From the NCBI GenBank assembly GCA_022795805.1, contig JAAWHK010000022.1:1-33112 (forward strand): 33,112 bases of DNA. Reading direction: 5' to 3'. A model generated the notes under the pieces. The model saw nothing but the letters and a program-made list of their open reading frames with translations, was not told where the DNA came from and did no database searches. The stretch is from Hungatella sp. (GTDB taxonomy: Bacteria; Bacillota; Clostridia; Lachnospirales; Lachnospiraceae). This document shows, in pieces, positions 23,327-33,019 of the stretch (position 1 is the stretch's first letter; each line of letters starts with the position of its first letter). The translations under genes and the position numbers were made by a program.

Positions 23327-25540
23327 ATGAAAAAGCGGCTTGGATGTTTGATCTGCGCCACGGCGCTGGGCTGTGTGACGGCCTGCGGCGGCAGCGGGAC
23401 TCAGGTGCAGACACAGGAGAGCAAAACCGAAACATCCGCAGAGGAGACCACATCCCAGGAGGAGACAAAGGCAGGCGTGTACACGCCGGGAACCTACACA
23501 GGGGAGGCCGGAGGGTACGGCGGAACGGTGTCCGTAACCATAACCGTGGATGCCACGACTATCACAGAGGCGGCAGCGGAGGGCGGGGACGAGACGCCCG
23601 CTATCGGAGGAGCCGCCCTGGAGGAGCTGGCACAGCAGATTAAAGAGGCCCAGAGCGGGGACATAGACGGGGTGTCCGGGGCGACCATAACCAGCGACGG
23701 CGTGAGGGCCGCTGCCAAAAGTGCCATTGCCCAGGCAAAGGGGGAGGAGATTCAGACGGCAAAGGGGGCTCTCACAGACGGAGTGTACTCCGTAAAGAGC
23801 ACGGGATACAGCTGGACCGGCATGATCAGTGCCGATGTGACCGTTAAGGACGGCCGGATTTCCGATATTGTCATTACCGAGGAACATGAAAGCGAGACGG
23901 GGGAGATGGGAAAAACCGCCTTTGACCTTCTGATTCCCCGCCTTATTGACAGCCAGAGCCTGGCGGTGGATGCCATCGGCGGCGCCACATCCACGTCCAA
24001 CGGCATAAAGGCATGCGTCTCCCAGGCCATCGAGATGGCAGGAGGCGATCCGGCCCAGTGGCAGGTGCCCGTGGAGAAAAAGAGCGACACCGTCCGCCTG
24101 GAGGGCTACGACGTGATCGTTGCGGGGCTGGGAGGCTCCGGTATATCCGCCTACTGCGCGGCGGCTATGGAGGGGGCAAAGGTCTTTGGCATCGAGAGGG
24201 CGGCAAAGCTGGGAGGTCAGTCTGCCACCGTGACCGGGCCTATGGTGATTGATTCGAAAGCGCCTGCTTTTGAGGGCGTGGAATTTGCCGACCCGGACGA
24301 GGTGTATCAGGTGTGGCTGGACTACGTGGGCAGCGATGAGAAGGCGGATATTATCCGTGAGGCGGTCTACAACAGCGGAGCGTACCTGGACTACTACATC
24401 GACAACTTCGACTTCGAGTTTGAAGGCATGATCATGAGTTTTGCAAAACCGGAGTGGAGCCAGTTCTGGACAAGCTATGTGGGGGAAGAGGGAAGCCGCA
24501 ACCAGTTCGGCGACAACAAGACATATCAGTACGACCGGGCCATGGAAAAGGCGAAGGGACTGAATGAGGCGAATGACTACATGCTGGAGCTGACTGCCCG
24601 GGAGCTTATCTTTGAGGGTGAGCGCGTAGCAGGGGTGAAGGCGGTCTCCTATGACGGCACTGTCTACGAGATATACGGCGACAGCGTGATACTGGCAACC
24701 GGCGGGTATATCGGCGATGAGGAGCTGGTGCAGAAGTATTTCGGCACATCCCTGAACACGGTGGCGGCAACGGTCAATGACGGCGCCGGGATTAAGATGG
24801 GCCTTTCGGCCGGCGGGGCCGTGTACCAGATGGGTGTGGATCCCATGATTCACATTCTGCAGGTTCCCAACATGATCAAAAATGACGACCTGACACCGGA
24901 CCAGAAGGCGATTCTCACAGGCCTGGCTCTGGTAAGCGGCGAGAAGACCGTTTCCATCGAGGGGAAGGCCCTGGATCTGGAGTCCATCGGAACTACCAAT
25001 ATATGTTCCATTCCGGGCTACCGGTACTATGTGGTCTATACCCAGGAGCAGATTGACGCCTACAAGGAGAAGGGGCTGACCGAAAATTTCGGCGCTGCAG
25101 TCTCCATGTTCATGGGACAGGGCGGAGAGATTGTGACAGGGGTGCCTGTTGAGGATATGGACACGATTCTGGATGTGGGAATCCGGTATAAGAATGTGCT
25201 GAAGGGTGATTCCATAAAGGAGCTGGCAGCAGCGATGGGATGCGACGAGACGGCTCTGTCAGAAGCCCTGGGCGGTGAGGAAACCACCTACTATGCGGTC
25301 ATAGCCGCAGGCTACACCTACGGCACCGTAGGCGGTCTGGATGTGGATGTAAATATGAACGTTCTCAGGGAGGACGGCTCCCCCGTAGAGAATCTGTTCG
25401 CGGTGGGAACGGATTCCATGGGCGTGGAGAACGTGGAAGGAAAACCGTATACGCCGTGGGGCGGACAGGCTCACTCCTGGACGTTTGTGTCAGGTTATCT
25501 GGGAGGAAAAGCGGCGGCAGCTTACGGGACAGAAAAATAG
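23327..25540 (+). CDS. Extracellular lipoprotein flavoreductase: two FMN-binding domains plus fumarate/urocanate-reductase-like FAD domain
   Basis: The 737-residue protein begins with a lipoprotein signal (lipobox VTAC, Cys20) and a Glu/Thr/Ser-rich tether. Two FMN-binding domains follow, each with the covalent flavinylation motif used by ApbE: DGVSGAT (114-120) and DAIGGAT (215-221). From about 260 a FAD-dependent oxidoreductase of the fumarate reductase/succinate dehydrogenase flavoprotein type begins (GYDVIVAGLGGSG, about 260-272; LGGQSATVTGP; later VILATGGYIGDEEL and the end SGYLGGKAAAAYG). The FAD domain differs from true fumarate reductases at the C-terminal region, where VGTDSMGVENVEGKPYTPWGGQAHS is found. 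It thus probably reduces a different alkene-type acceptor (urocanate- or enoate-like). The protein would sit on the outer surface and take electrons from membrane-bound flavin carriers. It is controlled by the MerR-type promoter just upstream. No ApbE gene is in the window. Confidence 0.88.
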   Translation: MKKRLGCLICATALGCVTACGGSGTQVQTQESKTETSAEETTSQEETKAGVYTPGTYTGEAGGYGGTVSVTITVDATTITEAAAEGGDETPAIGGAALEELAQQIKEAQSGDIDGVSGATITSDGVRAAAKSAIAQAKGEEIQTAKGALTDGVYSVKSTGYSWTGMISADVTVKDGRISDIVITEEHESETGEMGKTAFDLLIPRLIDSQSLAVDAIGGATSTSNGIKACVSQAIEMAGGDPAQWQVPVEKKSDTVRLEGYDVIVAGLGGSGISAYCAAAMEGAKVFGIERAAKLGGQSATVTGPMVIDSKAPAFEGVEFADPDEVYQVWLDYVGSDEKADIIREAVYNSGAYLDYYIDNFDFEFEGMIMSFAKPEWSQFWTSYVGEEGSRNQFGDNKTYQYDRAMEKAKGLNEANDYMLELTARELIFEGERVAGVKAVSYDGTVYEIYGDSVILATGGYIGDEELVQKYFGTSLNTVAATVNDGAGIKMGLSAGGAVYQMGVDPMIHILQVPNMIKNDDLTPDQKAILTGLALVSGEKTVSIEGKALDLESIGTTNICSIPGYRYYVVYTQEQIDAYKEKGLTENFGAAVSMFMGQGGEIVTGVPVEDMDTILDVGIRYKNVLKGDSIKELAAAMGCDETALSEALGGEETTYYAVIAAGYTYGTVGGLDVDVNMNVLREDGSPVENLFAVGTDSMGVENVEGKPYTPWGGQAHSWTFVSGYLGGKAAAAYGTEK

Positions 25541-26504: not shown

Positions 26505-26590
26505 TAAGAATAAGACTGCAACTTATTTTTTTACCGTACAATGTTAAAAAAAAGACGATATTTATGGCAAAAACGAAAGGAGCAGTTGTT

Positions 26591-27822
26591 ATGGAAACAT
26601 CACAGAAAAAGAGAAACCCATGGCTGTCCCTGGCGGCGGTTACGCTGGCCTTTTCCTTCACATTTTTAAGCAGATACATCTGGAGTCCCCTGATGGCGGA
26701 TGTGTCCGGGGAGTTTGGGATCAATGCCACTCAGGCGGGACTTTACATGTCCGCGTTTTTCGCCGGATACCTGGTGACTCAGATACCGGGAGGAATCATG
26801 GCGGACAAGTATAAGCCCAAATATATCCTCATGATCTGCACGGCCCTGGGAGGCGTTATGACGGCCATGATGTCCATGATCCAGAGCTACGAGATGGGGC
26901 TGGTGATCCGGGTGATCACCGGTGTCAGCAGTGGATGCGTCATGGCGCAGTGTTCCAAGGTGGTGGCCACCACGTTTGAACCCAGGAAGAGGGCATCGGC
27001 CATGGGAGTGGTTCTGGCATCCCCGCCTTTCGGCATCACCCTGGCCCAGTCCCTGGGCGCTCCCTTAAATCAGTCCGTGGGCTGGAGAAACACCTTTTTG
27101 ACAGTGGCGGCGGTTGCGGTTGTGATCGTGGCTATGATCGCCGTGTGGGTTCCCACGGCGGAGAAAAAGGCGGCTCCCACAGGCAGCGCGGCGAAAGCGG
27201 CGGCTCAGACGGCAGCAGCGGCTCCATCAAAGCAGGCAGGGCTTCTGGAGGGACTTGCAGGCTTCTTCACCAACAAGCAGCAGCTTCTCTTAGGGGCCAG
27301 CGGTTTTATGTTCATGTTCATCTCCGTGGGATTTGCCACATGGACCAACCGCTACGCCCAGAGCCTGGGATTTACCCCGGTACAGGGGGTATGATCATCA
27401 CCTGCTACAGCATCGCAGGCATTGCGGCCTCCTGCATCTCCGGTTCCCTGGCGGACAAGCTTCACTTCAGCCACCGGAACTTCCTTATATTAAGCCTGTC
27501 CCTCATGGGCGTCATGACTCTGGTATTTTCCTTCCAGACCAGCTACGCAGGGCTTATAGGGGTGGGAATCATCTACGGCGCGGTGTCCTACCTGCCCTCC
27601 ACCCACTACACCACCTCCGCCATGATCCTGGCCGGGGAGCGGTATACGGCCACGGCGGCGTCCTCCCAGAACCTTCTGTTTCAGCTGGCCAGCTTTATCA
27701 TGCCGGTGGTTGTGGGGCGTGCCATCGACGCCACAGGCAATTACAGCCTGATCTGGTACATTTTCTGCGGCTGCGCCGTTATTTCCGTATTATTCTGCTT
27801 CTTTGTTAAAAATGATAAATAA
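26591..27822 (+). pseudogene. MFS transporter (organic-anion type), interrupted by a single-base frameshift
   Basis: The first frame (METSQKKRNPWLSLAAVTLA) encodes helices 1-6, a cytoplasmic Ala/Lys-rich loop (about residues 190-215) and helix 7, then stops at 27394 just after GFTPVQGV. The -1 frame carries on without a break (GMIITCYSIAGIAASCISGSLADKL) to the end at 27822. The switch lies at a run of five Gs (27385-27389). One more G there would give an intact protein of about 410 residues, reading VQGGMIIT, the normal MFS length. Features include the loop 2-3 motif GGIMADKYKPKY and 'RVITGVSSGCVMAQCSKVVATTFEPRKRASAMG', as in ACS-type carboxylate symporters. A start at 26591 has AAAGGAG before it. 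Either the gene is broken, the run was misread, or ribosomes slip; the downstream half is well conserved, so damage would be recent. Confidence 0.85.
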
Positions 27823-27843: not shown

Positions 27844-28362
27844 ATGAAAGAAATAGTTCGAAACGTAATTACCATCCATGTAAATGGAAAGACCTATGAT
27901 ATTCCCGTGGGCCCGGGGCGGTATGAGATGCCTGAGAGCGAGACCCTGTCCCACACCCTGCGGGATCGTCTGGGGCTTACAGGCCTTAAGATCGGGTGCG
28001 ATCAGGGAGCCTGCGGCTGCTGCACGGTGATCATGGACGGAAAGGCAGTCACCTCCTGCATGACCCTTACCCTGGACTGCGACGGCGGCCGCATCACCAC
28101 CATCGAGGGGCTGGCGGACCGTGCCACCGGGGAATTGGACGGGCTGCAGCAGGCATTTCTGGACAACTGCGGATACCAGTGCGGATTCTGTACGCCGGGG
28201 ATTATCATGACGGCCAAGGCGTTTCTTGAAGAGCATGAGGATCCGACGGAGGAGGAAGTGAGGGAGGCTCTGGCCGGCAATTACTGCCGCTGCGGCACCC
28301 ACTATACGGCGGTTGAGTCGGTTATGGCTTATGTGCAGAAGAGGAAGGAGGAGCGTCAATGA
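27844..28362 (+). CDS. Molybdenum hydroxylase small subunit, two [2Fe-2S] clusters (xanthine dehydrogenase family)
   Basis: The 172-residue subunit carries electrons from the molybdenum site to the flavin subunit. It has the plant-ferredoxin-like cluster cysteines Cys52, Cys57, Cys60 and Cys72 (GCDQGACGCC...SC) and the second-cluster cysteines Cys113, Cys116, Cys148 and Cys150 (GYQCGFCTPG...NYCRCG). This is the standard pattern for XdhC/CoxS-type subunits, where the QCGFCTPG motif is diagnostic. A short N-terminal extension precedes the usual ITIHVNGK start. AAAGGAG precedes the ATG. The end overlaps the large-subunit start by four bases. Confidence 0.96.
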   Translation: MKEIVRNVITIHVNGKTYDIPVGPGRYEMPESETLSHTLRDRLGLTGLKIGCDQGACGCCTVIMDGKAVTSCMTLTLDCDGGRITTIEGLADRATGELDGLQQAFLDNCGYQCGFCTPGIIMTAKAFLEEHEDPTEEEVREALAGNYCRCGTHYTAVESVMAYVQKRKEERQ

Positions 28363-30656
28363 GTGAACTGAAGTATGTAGGAAAAGAGACTGTTCGCCTG
28401 CTGGGACCGGACATTGTCACAGGAAAGGCCAGGTACACAGGGGATTTTAGGCTGCCGGGGATGCAGTACGGAAAGATCTTAAGAAGCCCCCACCCCTACG
28501 CTAAGATTCTGTCCATCGACGTGTCCCGGGCAAAGGCTCTGGAGGGAGTCAGCGCTGTGGTGACATGGCAGGATGTGGATCGGAACATCTACATCACCAA
28601 CGGATTTACCCCGCCGAAGCATCACCACATTATGGATATGTATGTGCGGTTTATCGGCGACGCTGTGGCTCTTATCGTGGCGGAGACGGAGGATATCGCC
28701 ATGGAGGCCATGAACCTTATCCACGTGGAGTATGAGGTGTTAAAGCCTGTGTTCACCATCGACGAGGCCATGGCTCCGGGCGCTCCTCAGCTGTATCCGG
28801 AGTTCCCCGGCAATATCGCTCCCCACAAGAACAATCTGGATTTTGAGGTGGGGGATATCGCCAAAGGCTTTGAGGAGTCGGACGTGATCGTGGAGATTGA
28901 CGCTTCCATGGAGAACGGACAGAACCCCCTTCCCGTGGAGCCGCCTACCATTATCTGTTCCTATGAAAATGACACCTACCGCTTTATCGCCTCCGCGGCG
29001 GCCCCGGCTTACTGCCACCAGAACGTGGCTTCGTCCCTGAACGTGCCCTATGAGCAGGTGCGCCTGGAGGCTCCGGCCGTGGGAGGAAGCTTTGGCTCCA
29101 AGCTTTACAGCGGCAATGTGCAGTGTCTGGTGTTTGCGGCTGTTATGGCAAAGGCCGCCCGGTGTCCGGTTTTGTTTACCTACACCAAGGAGGAGCATTT
29201 CGGCGTTCATCAGAACCGTATGTCCACCAAGGCTCACATCAAGTTCGGCATGAAAAAGGACGGAACGGCAAGCGCCGTGGAGATGACCCAGTACGCGGAC
29301 GCGGGGGTCTGCGCCTCCACCCAGGAGTTCATGCTGGCAGTGGGAACCAACACGCTGCCTATCCTGTGCAAGACCGACAACAAGAGCTACCACGCCAAGG
29401 TGGTGGTGACCAACCATATTCCCTCCGGTTCCTTCCGGGGATACGGATATATGGAGTCCACGGCCCTCATCAGCCAGGCGATCTTTGAGGCCTGCGAGAA
29501 AATGGATATTGACCCGGTGGTCTACCTTGAGAAGAACGCCATGAGAAAGGGAGACCGGTATCACAATTCCATGGCCGGCGCTCACCCGTGGCAGGAAAAC
29601 AAGACGGCGGACTGGTCCAACCTGGTGACGGAGACAGCCAGGGCCTTTCGGTGGAGCGAGCGGTTTAAAGGCTGGGGCGTTCCCACCTGGGTATCCCCCG
29701 ACGGCAAGAAGGCCAGGGGCGTGGGAGTGGGAGCTGCAGGCCATTCAGACACAGGCGGCAAGCCGTCCAATGCCAACGTGACCGTCACCGGCCTGGGAGC
29801 CGTGTATCTGTCTACCTGTATGTCGGAGTTCGGCGCGGGAACCAGGGATGTGATGCTGAAGGTGGTGGCCGAGGAGCTGGGTATGCCGCTGGAATCCATC
29901 CGGGTCTCCGACGCGGACACGGGCATGACGCCGCCTGACTTCGGTTCCACCGGTTCCAGATCCACCTACTGCGGCGGTATCGTCGCCAAGAGGGCCTGTG
30001 AGGACGTGAAGAAGAAATTGTTTGCGCTGACCCACGAGAAGTTCGGGGTGCCGGAGGACGACCTGGGATTTGAGAAAGGGTTTGTGTACCGCATCTCCAA
30101 CCCTGAGGAGAAGTACGGCCTGTTCCCCCATCTCATGGGAAAGGTGGACAGCGTCACAGGCTGCGGCCACTTTGACGGCGTCCACAACAGCACCATTTTC
30201 CATCTGCAGTTTGTGGAGGTTGAGGTTGACATGGAGATGGGAACCTTCCGCATTATCGACCACTTCGGCGGTTCGGACGCAGGGGTTATCGTGAATCCGC
30301 TGCCCCTTAAAAACCAGTGCCAGTCCTTCTTTGCCGGCATTGACATCGCCTGCATGGAGGAGACGGTCTGGGATCCCAATGATTTCCGCGTGCTCAACCC
30401 CAGCAATATTGACTATAAGACCAGAACCTTTAACGACGTGGTGCCCCATGACCACATAATCCTGGAGTCCATGAAGGACGTGGAGAATGATTATCCCTTT
30501 GGCGCAGTAGGCGTGGGGGAGCCCCTTCTGGCTCCCGGCGGCCCGGCGATCCGCATGGCCATCTACAATGCCTGCCGGATTAAGCTGAATTCGTATCCCT
30601 TTACGCCTGCGAAAGTCTTAGAAGCACTGAAAGAGAAGGAGGAACAGGAAGCATGA
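28359..30656 (+). CDS. Molybdenum hydroxylase large subunit, molybdopterin-binding (xanthine dehydrogenase family)
   Basis: The 765-residue catalytic subunit hydroxylates a substrate carbon using water at a molybdenum-cytosine-dinucleotide or similar cofactor. It has the N-terminal a/b hammerhead (VGKETVRLLGPDIVTGKARY...DFRLPGM), the cofactor loop GGSFGSK (242-248), SFRGYGYME (358-366) and the invariant catalytic base Glu721 in GVGEPLLAP. Motifs differ from purine-type enzymes: GGSFGSK instead of GGGFGGK, and RGYGYME instead of RGFGGPQ, and the usual 'H..MEP' sequence reads QNPLPVEP. So the substrate is probably not a standard purine, though this cannot be decided by eye. It overlaps its neighbours on both sides by four bases, so the three subunits are translationally coupled. 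Confidence 0.94.
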   Translation: MSELKYVGKETVRLLGPDIVTGKARYTGDFRLPGMQYGKILRSPHPYAKILSIDVSRAKALEGVSAVVTWQDVDRNIYITNGFTPPKHHHIMDMYVRFIGDAVALIVAETEDIAMEAMNLIHVEYEVLKPVFTIDEAMAPGAPQLYPEFPGNIAPHKNNLDFEVGDIAKGFEESDVIVEIDASMENGQNPLPVEPPTIICSYENDTYRFIASAAAPAYCHQNVASSLNVPYEQVRLEAPAVGGSFGSKLYSGNVQCLVFAAVMAKAARCPVLFTYTKEEHFGVHQNRMSTKAHIKFGMKKDGTASAVEMTQYADAGVCASTQEFMLAVGTNTLPILCKTDNKSYHAKVVVTNHIPSGSFRGYGYMESTALISQAIFEACEKMDIDPVVYLEKNAMRKGDRYHNSMAGAHPWQENKTADWSNLVTETARAFRWSERFKGWGVPTWVSPDGKKARGVGVGAAGHSDTGGKPSNANVTVTGLGAVYLSTCMSEFGAGTRDVMLKVVAEELGMPLESIRVSDADTGMTPPDFGSTGSRSTYCGGIVAKRACEDVKKKLFALTHEKFGVPEDDLGFEKGFVYRISNPEEKYGLFPHLMGKVDSVTGCGHFDGVHNSTIFHLQFVEVEVDMEMGTFRIIDHFGGSDAGVIVNPLPLKNQCQSFFAGIDIACMEETVWDPNDFRVLNPSNIDYKTRTFNDVVPHDHIILESMKDVENDYPFGAVGVGEPLLAPGGPAIRMAIYNACRIKLNSYPFTPAKVLEALKEKEEQEA

Positions 30657-33019
30657 AAAATTTCGGATATATAACACCAAAGACCCTGGAAGAAGCTTCC
30701 GCACTGCTTAAAAACCCCCGCACCGCAGCCATGGGCGGCGGCACGGATCTGCTGGGCGTTATCAAGGACGGGCTGCTGCCAAGCCCTCCCGAAACCGTGG
30801 TGAATCTGAAAAAGCTTCCGGAGCTTTCAGGTCTTGAGGAGCGGGAAGACGGCCTTCACGCGGGGGCCTGCGTGACGCTTTCGGAGCTTTCGGAGAATGA
30901 GACTGTAAAGGCCAAATGGCCTGCCCTGGCGGATGCCGCCAGAAGCGTGGCCACACCGAATCTGCGCAACACCGCCACGTTGGGGGGCAACCTGTGCCAG
31001 GACATCCGCTGCTGGTATTACCGGTACCCGGAGATCTTAGGCGGCAGGATCAACTGTGCCAGGAAGGAGGGCCATCTGTGTTCGGCCATGATGGGAGAGA
31101 ACCGCTACCATTCCATCTTCGGCGCCGCCAAGGTGTGTGAGACTCCCTGTACAGGCAGGTGCCCGGCTCACACGGATATCTCCGCCTACATGGAGCTTCT
31201 GCGGGCGGGAAAGGTGGAGGAGGCAGCCAGGGTTATCCTGGAGGTAAACCCCATGCCGGCCATCACCAGCCGCGTGTGCGCCCACTTCTGCATGGAGGGC
31301 TGCAACCGCAGCACCTACGACGAGAGCCTGAACGTGGGCGCCGTGGAGCGGTATCTGGGGGACTACATCCTGGAGCATAAGGATGTGTTTATGCAGGCGC
31401 CGGACAGGGAGAACGGGATGAAGGTTTCCATCATCGGCTCCGGCCCGGCAGGCCTGACTGCGGCCTACTACCTGCGCCAGAGCGGCTACAGCGTGACCAT
31501 TTACGAGAAGCAGCCGGAGGCAGGCGGATGTCTGACCTACGCCATCCCGCCTTACCGCCTGCCAAAGGAAGTGGTGAAGGACTTTATCGGTGCGCTGGAG
31601 GCCATGGGCGTGAGATTTCAGTGCGGCTGCAGCATCGGCCAGGACAAGACACTTGATGAGATCGTGAAGACCAGCGACAGCGTGATGCTGGATACGGGCA
31701 CATGGAAGCGGCCCCTTATCGGTCTGGCCGGGGAGGAGCTGACAAGGTTCGGCCTGGAATTTCTGATGGACGTAAACAACTACGTCAGGGAGAGGCCGGG
31801 CTCCCGGGTTGTGGTGGTCGGCGGCGGCAATGTGGCCATGGACGTGGCCATCACGGCCAAACGCCTTGGCTGCCCGGAGGTTACCATGGTGTGCCTGGAA
31901 CAGCGGGATTCCATGCCTGCCAATGAGGAGGAGATTACGAGAGCCCTGGAGGAGGGCGTGCTTATCCGCAACGGATGGGGCCCTAAGGAGGTTGTGCGCA
32001 CCGACGGCAAGGTGAGGGGAATGGTGTTTAAGCACTGTCCGAAGGTGCTGGACGATACGGGACGGTTTAACCCTGTCTATGAGGAGGACAAGGTTATGGA
32101 GCTTCAGGCCGACATCATCATGATGGCTATCGGCCAGAAGGCGGACCTGGATTTTCTGGAGGGCGCTTACAAAATCGAGACGGAGCGGGGAAGGATTAAG
32201 GCTCTGGAAGGGTGCCGCACCACAGAGGCGGGCATCTTTGCAGGGGGCGACGTGACCACAGGCCCGGCCACGGTTATCGGGGCCATTGCCTCCGGAAAGC
32301 AGGTCGCCGTCTCCGTGAACCAGTACTGCGGCTTGAAGGAACTTCCGGTTGAGAAGGCGGCCAGAGAGCGGCTTCATGAGAAGCTGGCGGCGTTTGACAC
32401 CGGATGCCGCGGCGGCAGGGAGGCCGTGAAGTCTCCCATGCTGGAGGTCCATGAGAGGGATATGGACAAGGAAGATCTGGGCTGCATCGCTCCGGAGCTT
32501 GCAAAGGGCGAGGCAAACCGCTGCTTTAACTGCGGCTGTCTGGCGGTGAATCCCAGCGACACGGCCAACATCCTTTACGCTTTTAATGCTAAGATCGTGA
32601 CCAACTACCGGACCATGGGGGCGGAGGAGTTTTTCGGCGCCAACACCAAGGTGCAGGAGGTTCTGAGGAAGGGTGAGATCGTGAAAGAGCTCATCGTTCC
32701 CTACCTGCCCAAGGGTGCTGTGGCCAGGTATGACAAGTTCCGCATCCGCAAGTCCATTGATTTTGCCGTGCTGGCCGTGGCCGGGTATTACCGGCTGGAG
32801 GAAGGCGTGGTGAAGGACGTAAGCCTGGTTCTGGGTGCCGTGGCACCGGTTCCCATGAAGATGAGGGAGGCCGAAAGCTACCTTCTGGGGAAGGAGCTGA
32901 CTGCCCAGACGGCGAAAGAGGCCGCCGAGATCGCGTTAAAAGACGCCATTCCGCTGGAAATGAACGGGTATAAGATCGACATGGCCAAGGTTATGGTGCG
33001 GAGGTTTTTGGGATTTTAA
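30653..33019 (+). CDS. Molybdenum hydroxylase FAD subunit with inserted GltD/YgfK-like NAD(P)-FAD oxidoreductase module
   Basis: This 788-residue protein is a split fusion. Residues 1-162 are the N-terminal half of a CoxM/XdhB-type FAD subunit: MKNFGYITPKTLEEASALL, MGGGTDLL (27-34), TPNLRNTATLGGNL (101-114) and NRYHSIFG (150-157). Residues about 162-628 are a glutamate-synthase-small-subunit-like module. It has Fe-S cysteines 162, 166, 170, 209, 213 and 217, an FAD site GSGPAGLTAAYYL (262-274), an NAD(P) site GGGNVAMDVA (390-399), GGDVTTGPATVIGAIASGK (531-549) and a closing RCFNCGC (623-629). At the last cysteine the sequence returns smoothly to the XdhB half, AVNPSDTANILYAFNAKIV, including the C-terminal CO-dehydrogenase flavoprotein domain to residue 788. 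In ordinary subunits NRYHSIFG is followed within a few residues by C.AV.PSD. The start overlaps the large subunit by four bases. Confidence 0.93.
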   Translation: MKNFGYITPKTLEEASALLKNPRTAAMGGGTDLLGVIKDGLLPSPPETVVNLKKLPELSGLEEREDGLHAGACVTLSELSENETVKAKWPALADAARSVATPNLRNTATLGGNLCQDIRCWYYRYPEILGGRINCARKEGHLCSAMMGENRYHSIFGAAKVCETPCTGRCPAHTDISAYMELLRAGKVEEAARVILEVNPMPAITSRVCAHFCMEGCNRSTYDESLNVGAVERYLGDYILEHKDVFMQAPDRENGMKVSIIGSGPAGLTAAYYLRQSGYSVTIYEKQPEAGGCLTYAIPPYRLPKEVVKDFIGALEAMGVRFQCGCSIGQDKTLDEIVKTSDSVMLDTGTWKRPLIGLAGEELTRFGLEFLMDVNNYVRERPGSRVVVVGGGNVAMDVAITAKRLGCPEVTMVCLEQRDSMPANEEEITRALEEGVLIRNGWGPKEVVRTDGKVRGMVFKHCPKVLDDTGRFNPVYEEDKVMELQADIIMMAIGQKADLDFLEGAYKIETERGRIKALEGCRTTEAGIFAGGDVTTGPATVIGAIASGKQVAVSVNQYCGLKELPVEKAARERLHEKLAAFDTGCRGGREAVKSPMLEVHERDMDKEDLGCIAPELAKGEANRCFNCGCLAVNPSDTANILYAFNAKIVTNYRTMGAEEFFGANTKVQEVLRKGEIVKELIVPYLPKGAVARYDKFRIRKSIDFAVLAVAGYYRLEEGVVKDVSLVLGAVAPVPMKMREAESYLLGKELTAQTAKEAAEIALKDAIPLEMNGYKIDMAKVMVRRFLGF

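Follow-up and report, generated by a model that had tools for sequence, protein, structure and literature searches.

The 33,112-nucleotide stretch of Hungatella sp. DNA analysed here (GenBank assembly GCA_022795805.1, contig JAAWHK010000022.1, positions 1 to 33,112; the window) encodes near its end a single 788-residue protein, P0001 (30653–33019, forward strand, stop codon included), in which one enzyme module is nested inside another. P0001 is a flavin adenine dinucleotide (FAD) subunit of the type found in XdhB and in 4-hydroxybenzoyl-CoA reductase (4-HBCR), interrupted by a complete GltD-type module inside its own [4Fe-4S] loop. An earlier note, made from the DNA letters without database searches, had reported this nesting at the same coordinates, and Pfam and alignment bear it out. 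Four domains follow one another in P0001, each above its Pfam cut-off: FAD_binding_5 (108.6 bits, cut-off 27), Fer4_20, Pyr_redox_2 and CO_deh_flav_C (61.4 bits, cut-off 25.5). The insert has Fer4_20 and two Rossmann folds, the composition of the NAD(P)H modules of GltD, NfnL and StnC; the two flavin-type sites and the extra Fe-S motifs described in the earlier note are thus present by domain and motif. The parts of the protein, all on the forward strand, are as follows.

30653–31129 (+), N-terminal half of the host subunit, residues 1–159, with FAD_binding_5 (3–116, Pfam) and most of the [4Fe-4S] loop; folds with the C-terminal half in the structure model
30995–31120 (+), host [4Fe-4S] loop, residues 115–156, with C120, C135 and C143 (alignment with 1rm6_B)
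31130–32536 (+), inserted GltD/StnC-type cassette, residues 160–628 (Pfam, profile and fold matches)
31136–31378 (+), Fer4_20 part of the cassette, residues 162–242, with C166, C170, C209, C213, C217 and E232 (Pfam, alignment)
31418–32296 (+), Pyr_redox_2, residues 256–548, the FAD and NAD(P)H Rossmann folds (Pfam)
31892–31900 (+), C414-L415-E416, following the second Rossmann beta strand; StnC, NfnA and NfnL have Y-R-R here
32510–32539 (+), exit motif E620-A-N-R-C624-F-N-C627-G-C629 (alignment)
32537–33016 (+), C-terminal half of the host subunit, residues 629–788, with CO_deh_flav_C (694–786, Pfam); folds with the N-terminal half in the model

The insert falls between the third and fourth cysteines of the host loop. 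C120, C135 and C143 align with C122, C138 and C146 of the 4-HBCR beta subunit (1rm6_B, positions counted on the alignment), which we take to be [4Fe-4S] ligands, and are invariant in the 25 fused proteins aligned. These are P0001 and 24 further full-length proteins, one of them from a complete chromosome; the set omits a 99% copy (L005), a 754-residue protein (L110), genes cut by contig ends (L015, L077 and L098), a decayed tandem gene in L106 and duplicates under other locus ids, and both it and the trees below exclude fused genes first met in later searches of the E. asparagiforme group and the phylum. All four loop cysteines are found in every fused protein (25 of 25) and in 41 of 41 unfused loop-bearing FAD subunits, a count that leaves out L017 (a fragment) and L045 (GltD part only), and in none of four loopless subunits. 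The last motif of the cassette is ExxRCxxC, and a single glycine separates its C627 from C629 of the host, so that the module does end beside an exact host cysteine, as had been proposed.

Two residues could serve as the fourth host ligand. Because position 629 is a cysteine in 25 of the 25 fused proteins and position 162 in only 11, C629 probably belongs to the host cluster, and C624 and C627 to the distal cluster of the cassette. C166, C170, C209, C213, C217, E232, C624 and C627 are each kept in all 25; the cassette thus has a cysteine/glutamate set for two [4Fe-4S] clusters, which we infer to be divided between a proximal and a distal cluster as set out below.

An AlphaFold2 model of P0001, computed from the 25-row alignment, has a mean predicted local distance difference test score (pLDDT) of 80.6 and a predicted template modelling score of 0.74. 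Its matches to the aldehyde-oxidase FAD subunit 5y6q_B (299 residues) and to 1rm6_B (291 residues) each span the range 1–788, as expected of a re-joined XdhB fold. In the model, then, the two XdhB halves make up one continuous fold, and the insert part matches StnC and NfnA; the suggestion that both folds would be left intact agrees with this prediction.

The nearest solved relatives of the cassette are NfnA of Nfn-ABC and StnC of Sporomusa StnABC (8oh5, 9bov, 9n5u), which carry the same GltD module ending in E(A/S)xRCxxCGC. In StnC it sits between an N-terminal [2Fe-2S] part (residues 1–101) and the remainder of a NuoG-like protein; the host of StnC and NfnA is thus NuoG-like, whereas that of P0001 is an XdhB-type FAD subunit of the xanthine oxidase (XO) family. 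StnC has K170 where P0001 has E232 (counted on the alignment) and YRR where P0001 has CLE. P0001 is no StnC: the strictly conserved K170 and the NuoG-like remainder are both absent from it. Among the sequences compared, the nearest non-fused relatives of the cassette are proteins of about 900 residues from the window's family (L099, L100 and others) with Fer4, Fer4_20 and Pyr_redox_2 domains, as read on L099. They share RCxxC at the C-terminal end and CLE (15 of 15 rows, 13 distinct), but have a lysine at the position of E232 and no XdhB halves. A circular permutation newly made by the insertion, with Fer4_20 entered at profile position 27 and the EAxRCxxC half at the far end, was considered and ruled out, because StnC and NfnA (in 9n5u by a weak second alignment) and the proteins of about 900 residues already have that half there. 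In NfnL (5jca_L), EAERCLQC is at the N-terminal end (weak first alignment).

The architecture is rare yet conserved in gut Clostridia. The earlier note had called for a search for other FAD subunits split around a GltD domain; in GTDB genomes this layout turned up in Hungatella, E. asparagiforme (complete chromosome), Clostridium sp. AT4, Gemmiger, Angelakisella and others, at 48–99% identity. Unfused relatives of about 320 residues occur in Deltaproteobacteria, Chloroflexi and Acidobacteria. In whole-genome searches (matches at E ≤ 1e-120; the window genome included except in the E. asparagiforme group) 10 of 17 genomes in the E. asparagiforme genus group and 7 of 26 in the window's genus had the fused protein. 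At wider ranks the counts were 7 of 397 genomes for the family (one match cut by a contig end), 4 of 391 for the class and 4 of 398 for the phylum. Of 778 matching records in a plasmid collection, none covers 80% of the query.

In a tree of the host domain, with the insert removed, the 25 fused rows lie on one side of a branch with a support of 97 in the Shimodaira–Hasegawa-like approximate likelihood ratio test (SH-aLRT). The 45 unfused rows include four loopless FAD subunits from other places; the loop-bearing ones divide into a group of six 4-HBCR-like FAD subunits (SH-aLRT 99) and a 35-row clade (99), and the tree leaves the order of these two groups and the fused one unsettled. In the insert tree, which has 19 further GltD-type sequences, the fused inserts form one group as well (SH-aLRT 100). 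The two trees come from quick searches, are rooted at the midpoint and have no support values other than SH-aLRT; they carry long-branch warnings for L076, L069 and L092 (host) and L066, L065 and L076 (insert). As each yields a single group, one old insertion is the simplest reading of the sequences. In one protein (L013:5338-7695) the host halves (61% and 54% identical to those of the window) and the molybdenum subunit group with the window's clade and the insert (46%) falls elsewhere, so its cassette was probably exchanged between paralogues.

Several fused genes have degenerate or altered forms. In three genomes of the window's genus a second, decayed copy (520–533 residues) lies directly 3' of a fused gene (L119:8368-9930, L120:8677-10278 and L121:4541-6142); those of L119 and L120 have lost the first ~60 host residues and much of the Rossmann part, and the cysteine motifs for Fe-S clusters, in the loop as in the cassette, are largely retained. 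The fused protein of L118 (G1018:C117) has about 905 residues; a long stretch rich in Gly and Ala separates its Rossmann part from the exit motif. In Candidatus Enterocloster excrementipullorum (L017:6052-6510) the fused subunit is represented by no more than a C-terminal piece (69% identity), which adjoins an unrelated gene and is either a remnant or a contig join.

The fused gene is the last of three in a run that leads from the 2Fe-2S subunit through the molybdenum subunit to the fused FAD subunit, successive genes sharing four bases; the window ends 93 bases past the stop codon of P0001. Its two partners are listed here.

27844–28362 (+), small subunit P0003, 172 residues, with Fer2 and Fer2_2 [2Fe-2S] domains (Pfam)
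28359–30656 (+), molybdenum subunit P0002, 765 residues, best solved match the 4-HBCR alpha subunit (1rm6_A)

Genes for both subunits accompany the fused gene in 20 of 21 fused loci, the window included. Architecture, fold, conservation, the one-group trees and the comparison with empty sites are computed results; the cluster assignment, the direction of electron flow, a preference for NADH and a reductive chemistry are inferences. It is likely, in our judgement, that P0001 is the electron-input subunit of a three-subunit molybdenum enzyme of the XO family, in which the insert acts as an NAD(P)H dehydrogenase cassette replacing an external donor. NAD(P)H, probably NADH, would reduce the cassette FAD, which would pass electrons one at a time to a proximal [4Fe-4S] cluster (C170, C209, C213 and E232). 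From there they would move to the distal [4Fe-4S] cluster (C166, C217, C624 and C627) and on to the host [4Fe-4S] cluster (C120, C135, C143 and C629), then to the host FAD, the small subunit with its two [2Fe-2S] clusters and finally the molybdenum cofactor. There the substrate would be reduced, most likely in the dehydroxylation of an aromatic or heteroaromatic compound. As the cassette sits in the host-cluster loop and its last ligand pair nearly abuts the fourth host ligand, the two chains would be linked via one short peptide. The preference for NADH is predicted from CLE (C414-L415-E416) in place of YRR.

Comparison lends this reading support, since three arrangements occur on one host scaffold. 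The 4-HBCR beta subunit has the same XdhB-type fold, with a [4Fe-4S] loop and the three aligned cysteines, but no cassette; the enzyme accepts electrons from reduced ferredoxin, according to PMC12771579. The NCBIfam 4-HBCR equivalogs score well below their cut-offs here (beta 142.9 bits against 404.55, alpha 359 bits against 994.55). In the clade of 35, a NuoF-like gene is present in all 25 loci that have more than 2.8 kb of upstream sequence (the other 10 have less), starting 3.8–4.8 kb upstream in 24 of them and 1.9 kb upstream in one; the one scanned, in L048, has 51K and 4Fe-4S domains. No NuoF gene was seen in the six 4-HBCR-like loci, four of which have 6 kb of upstream sequence, nor a NuoF-like gene in the 21 fused loci, some of which are short. 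The NuoF-like genes may do the job of the cassette in the neighbouring clade.

The exception among the 21 fused loci is L097 (5338-10370, genome G200). Here the fused protein comes with a small subunit that has lost its second cluster motif, and the neighbouring genes encode a flavoprotein of the fumarate-reductase type and a ferredoxin that is, judged by eye, of the two-cluster type. In this genome, rated 100% complete, no molybdenum subunit was found with P0002 or MoCoBD_1, the latter matching 5 places in one comparison genome and 2 in another. Such an arrangement is as expected of a separable electron-input unit, and the input module has apparently been rewired. A wider generalisation sees the cassette, with its entry C-x3-C-P and its exit ExxRCxxCxC, as a movable unit that evolution has placed in Fe-S regions of unrelated oxidoreductases (NuoG-like StnC, XdhB and, without the molybdenum subunit, the fumarate-reductase-like system of L097); this strikes us as improbable.

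The best guess for the window enzyme is that it reduces an aromatic or heteroaromatic compound. The solved structure closest to P0002 is the 4-HBCR alpha subunit (1.4e-69), and no equivalog cut-off is passed. Several substrates are likely, because the molybdenum subunits of 22 fused operons split into groups ~27–52% identical to one another. One fused operon of E. asparagiforme (L091) adjoins UbiD and UbiX-type flavoprotein genes. Another (L092) lies 2.5 kb from an unfused FAD/2Fe-2S/molybdenum set (L092:4419-8154), with a TylF-type methyltransferase gene between the two sets and a regulator-like open reading frame (ORF) judged by eye. This unfused set is probably Ucdh, the urolithin C 9-dehydroxylase, a three-subunit XO-family reductase of gut Clostridia (Enterocloster) that uses NADH and whose subunits A (FAD), B (2Fe-2S) and C (molybdenum) are encoded in a cluster with regulators and a methyltransferase, as PMC12771579 reports. 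The L092 set has the same gene order, and its molybdenum subunit (L092|5791) is 32.9% identical to 4-HBCR alpha with 49.7% positives (1rm6_A residues 11–766), against 32.7% identity and 49.2% similarity given for Ucdh in the same paper. A second unfused molybdenum subunit (L091|15163) has 36.8% and 52.4% over these residues, and the 22 of the fused operons have 25–30% identity. These values speak against a fused architecture for the characterised Ucdh, which is probably the unfused neighbour. The window's molybdenum subunit is 28% identical to L092|5791, far from the more than 90% that PMC12771579 gives for this subunit among Enterocloster Ucdh homologues.

Several observations weigh against the proposed electron-input role. 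In the model, pLDDT falls below 50 at residues 29–43, 118–138 (the host loop) and 353–365. That the YRR/CLE site governs the choice of nucleotide is an assumption, and the L013 protein has neither YRR nor CLE. Molybdenum subunits linked to NuoF are only 25–33% identical to P0002 in the best segments, so the NuoF genes are only a parallel. The probable Ucdh FAD subunit (L092:4419-5285, 288 residues) has neither the [4Fe-4S] loop nor the cassette; since Ucdh uses NADH, a cassette is not required for NADH use. Finally, P0002 scores alike with the XdhA model (2.3e-107) and the 4-HBCR alpha model (5.7e-107) and passes no cut-off, and an enzyme that oxidises its substrate and passes electrons to NAD(P)+ is therefore conceivable.

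This last point leads to the same wiring run backwards, an oxidative hydroxylase that hands its electrons to NAD(P)+ by way of the cassette, which we hold to be unlikely. Electron chains of the XO family are reversible in principle. Against such an exit speak the 4-HBCR-type [4Fe-4S] loop of the host (the title of one paper credits 4-HBCR with an inverted electron flow), the 4-HBCR alpha subunit as best solved match of P0002, and the paralogous operons, one beside UbiD/UbiX-type genes and one near a probable dehydroxylase. The first of these arguments is weakened by the presence of the loop in the aldehyde oxidases 5y6q_B and PaoB (5g5g_B) also.

In a bifurcating or confurcating enzyme the cassette FAD would divide the electrons of NAD(P)H, some going to the molybdenum chain and some to another acceptor. 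All 25 fused proteins have E232 and R302, which align with the glutamate of NfnB/NfnL and with StnC R239 (NfnB R201), residues discussed for the bifurcating flavin. The homologous FAD of StnC is nevertheless reported as non-bifurcating despite its arginine, and a glutamate at the place of E232 is also present in stand-alone GltD-type proteins such as L065. With no partner for a second branch seen in the operon, and a linear input chain being simpler, bifurcation is decidedly improbable.

The earlier note read the protein as a fusion of the YgfK and YgfM roles of purine and selenium loci, and this part of it does not hold up. The GltD part of YgfK is homologous to the insert (TIGR03315, 4.3e-80), but PRK12771 (2.4e-119, yet below its own cut-off) and NfnA/StnC match better; TIGR03315 reaches 269.4 bits against a cut-off of 835.3, with only positions 445–889 of 1012 matched and the first 444 lacking a counterpart. 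The XdhD-YgfM/YgfK system of E. coli does resemble the present one, in that a single gene cluster codes for both a homologue of the FAD subunit and a flavoenzyme with a GltD part, but there they are separate proteins acting in sequence, and the insert of P0001 is not of the YgfK type. According to PMC12507026, YgfK is a separate reductase acting on yanthine after XdhD, and YgfM is the FAD partner of XdhD. A YgfK–YgfM complex, also predicted, is for the same reason not implied by the fusion, and this origin of P0001 is very improbable. As for misassembly of two genes, the window does come from a 131-contig assembly (78% complete) and the frame of a nearby transporter gene is broken, but 24 other distinct proteins and a complete chromosome with the same layout refute it and make the fusion a natural one, as the earlier note had held; the chance of an artefact is practically negligible.

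Upstream of the operon lie two further features of the locus.

26564–27819 (+), major facilitator superfamily (MFS) transporter gene, frame broken in the window and open in L005
25593–26309 (-), divergent regulator ORF, clustering with L007:926-1696, which matches TetR_N

The broken MFS frame, open in the near-identical L005, is an error or a recent decay. Just upstream of the regulator is a 737-residue flavoprotein (23327–25540) with FMN_bind (two stretches) and FAD_binding_2, which we assume to be akin to fumarate/urocanate reductase. A NifU-like gene lies downstream in 9 of 21 fused loci (L007:8475-8885 and counterparts), and a MobA-like/MocA-type gene is nearby in 9 of 21.

None of the component parts of P0001 is new. 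The way they are nested at the host cluster, with a shared CxxCxC motif, was found in no title or abstract start searched, and the papers examined describe no characterised enzyme of the fused form. PMC12771579 mentions a C10 dehydroxylase, of which one subunit may have an extra domain; the fused operon next to the probable Ucdh genes might encode it.

If the proposed electron-input role of P0001 is true, such enzymes can do without a donor protein of their own, because the FAD subunit carries the donor module within the loop that bears its cluster; this suggests a way for molybdenum enzymes of this kind to run reductively. The [4Fe-4S] loop of 4-HBCR-type enzymes would then be, as a testable general statement, an electron entry port, served by an outside donor in 4-HBCR, perhaps by NuoF-like subunits in the neighbouring clade, and by a nested cassette in gut Clostridia. 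The cassette also marks a set of uncharacterised enzymes, two of whose operons lie near genes of aromatic or polyphenol metabolism.
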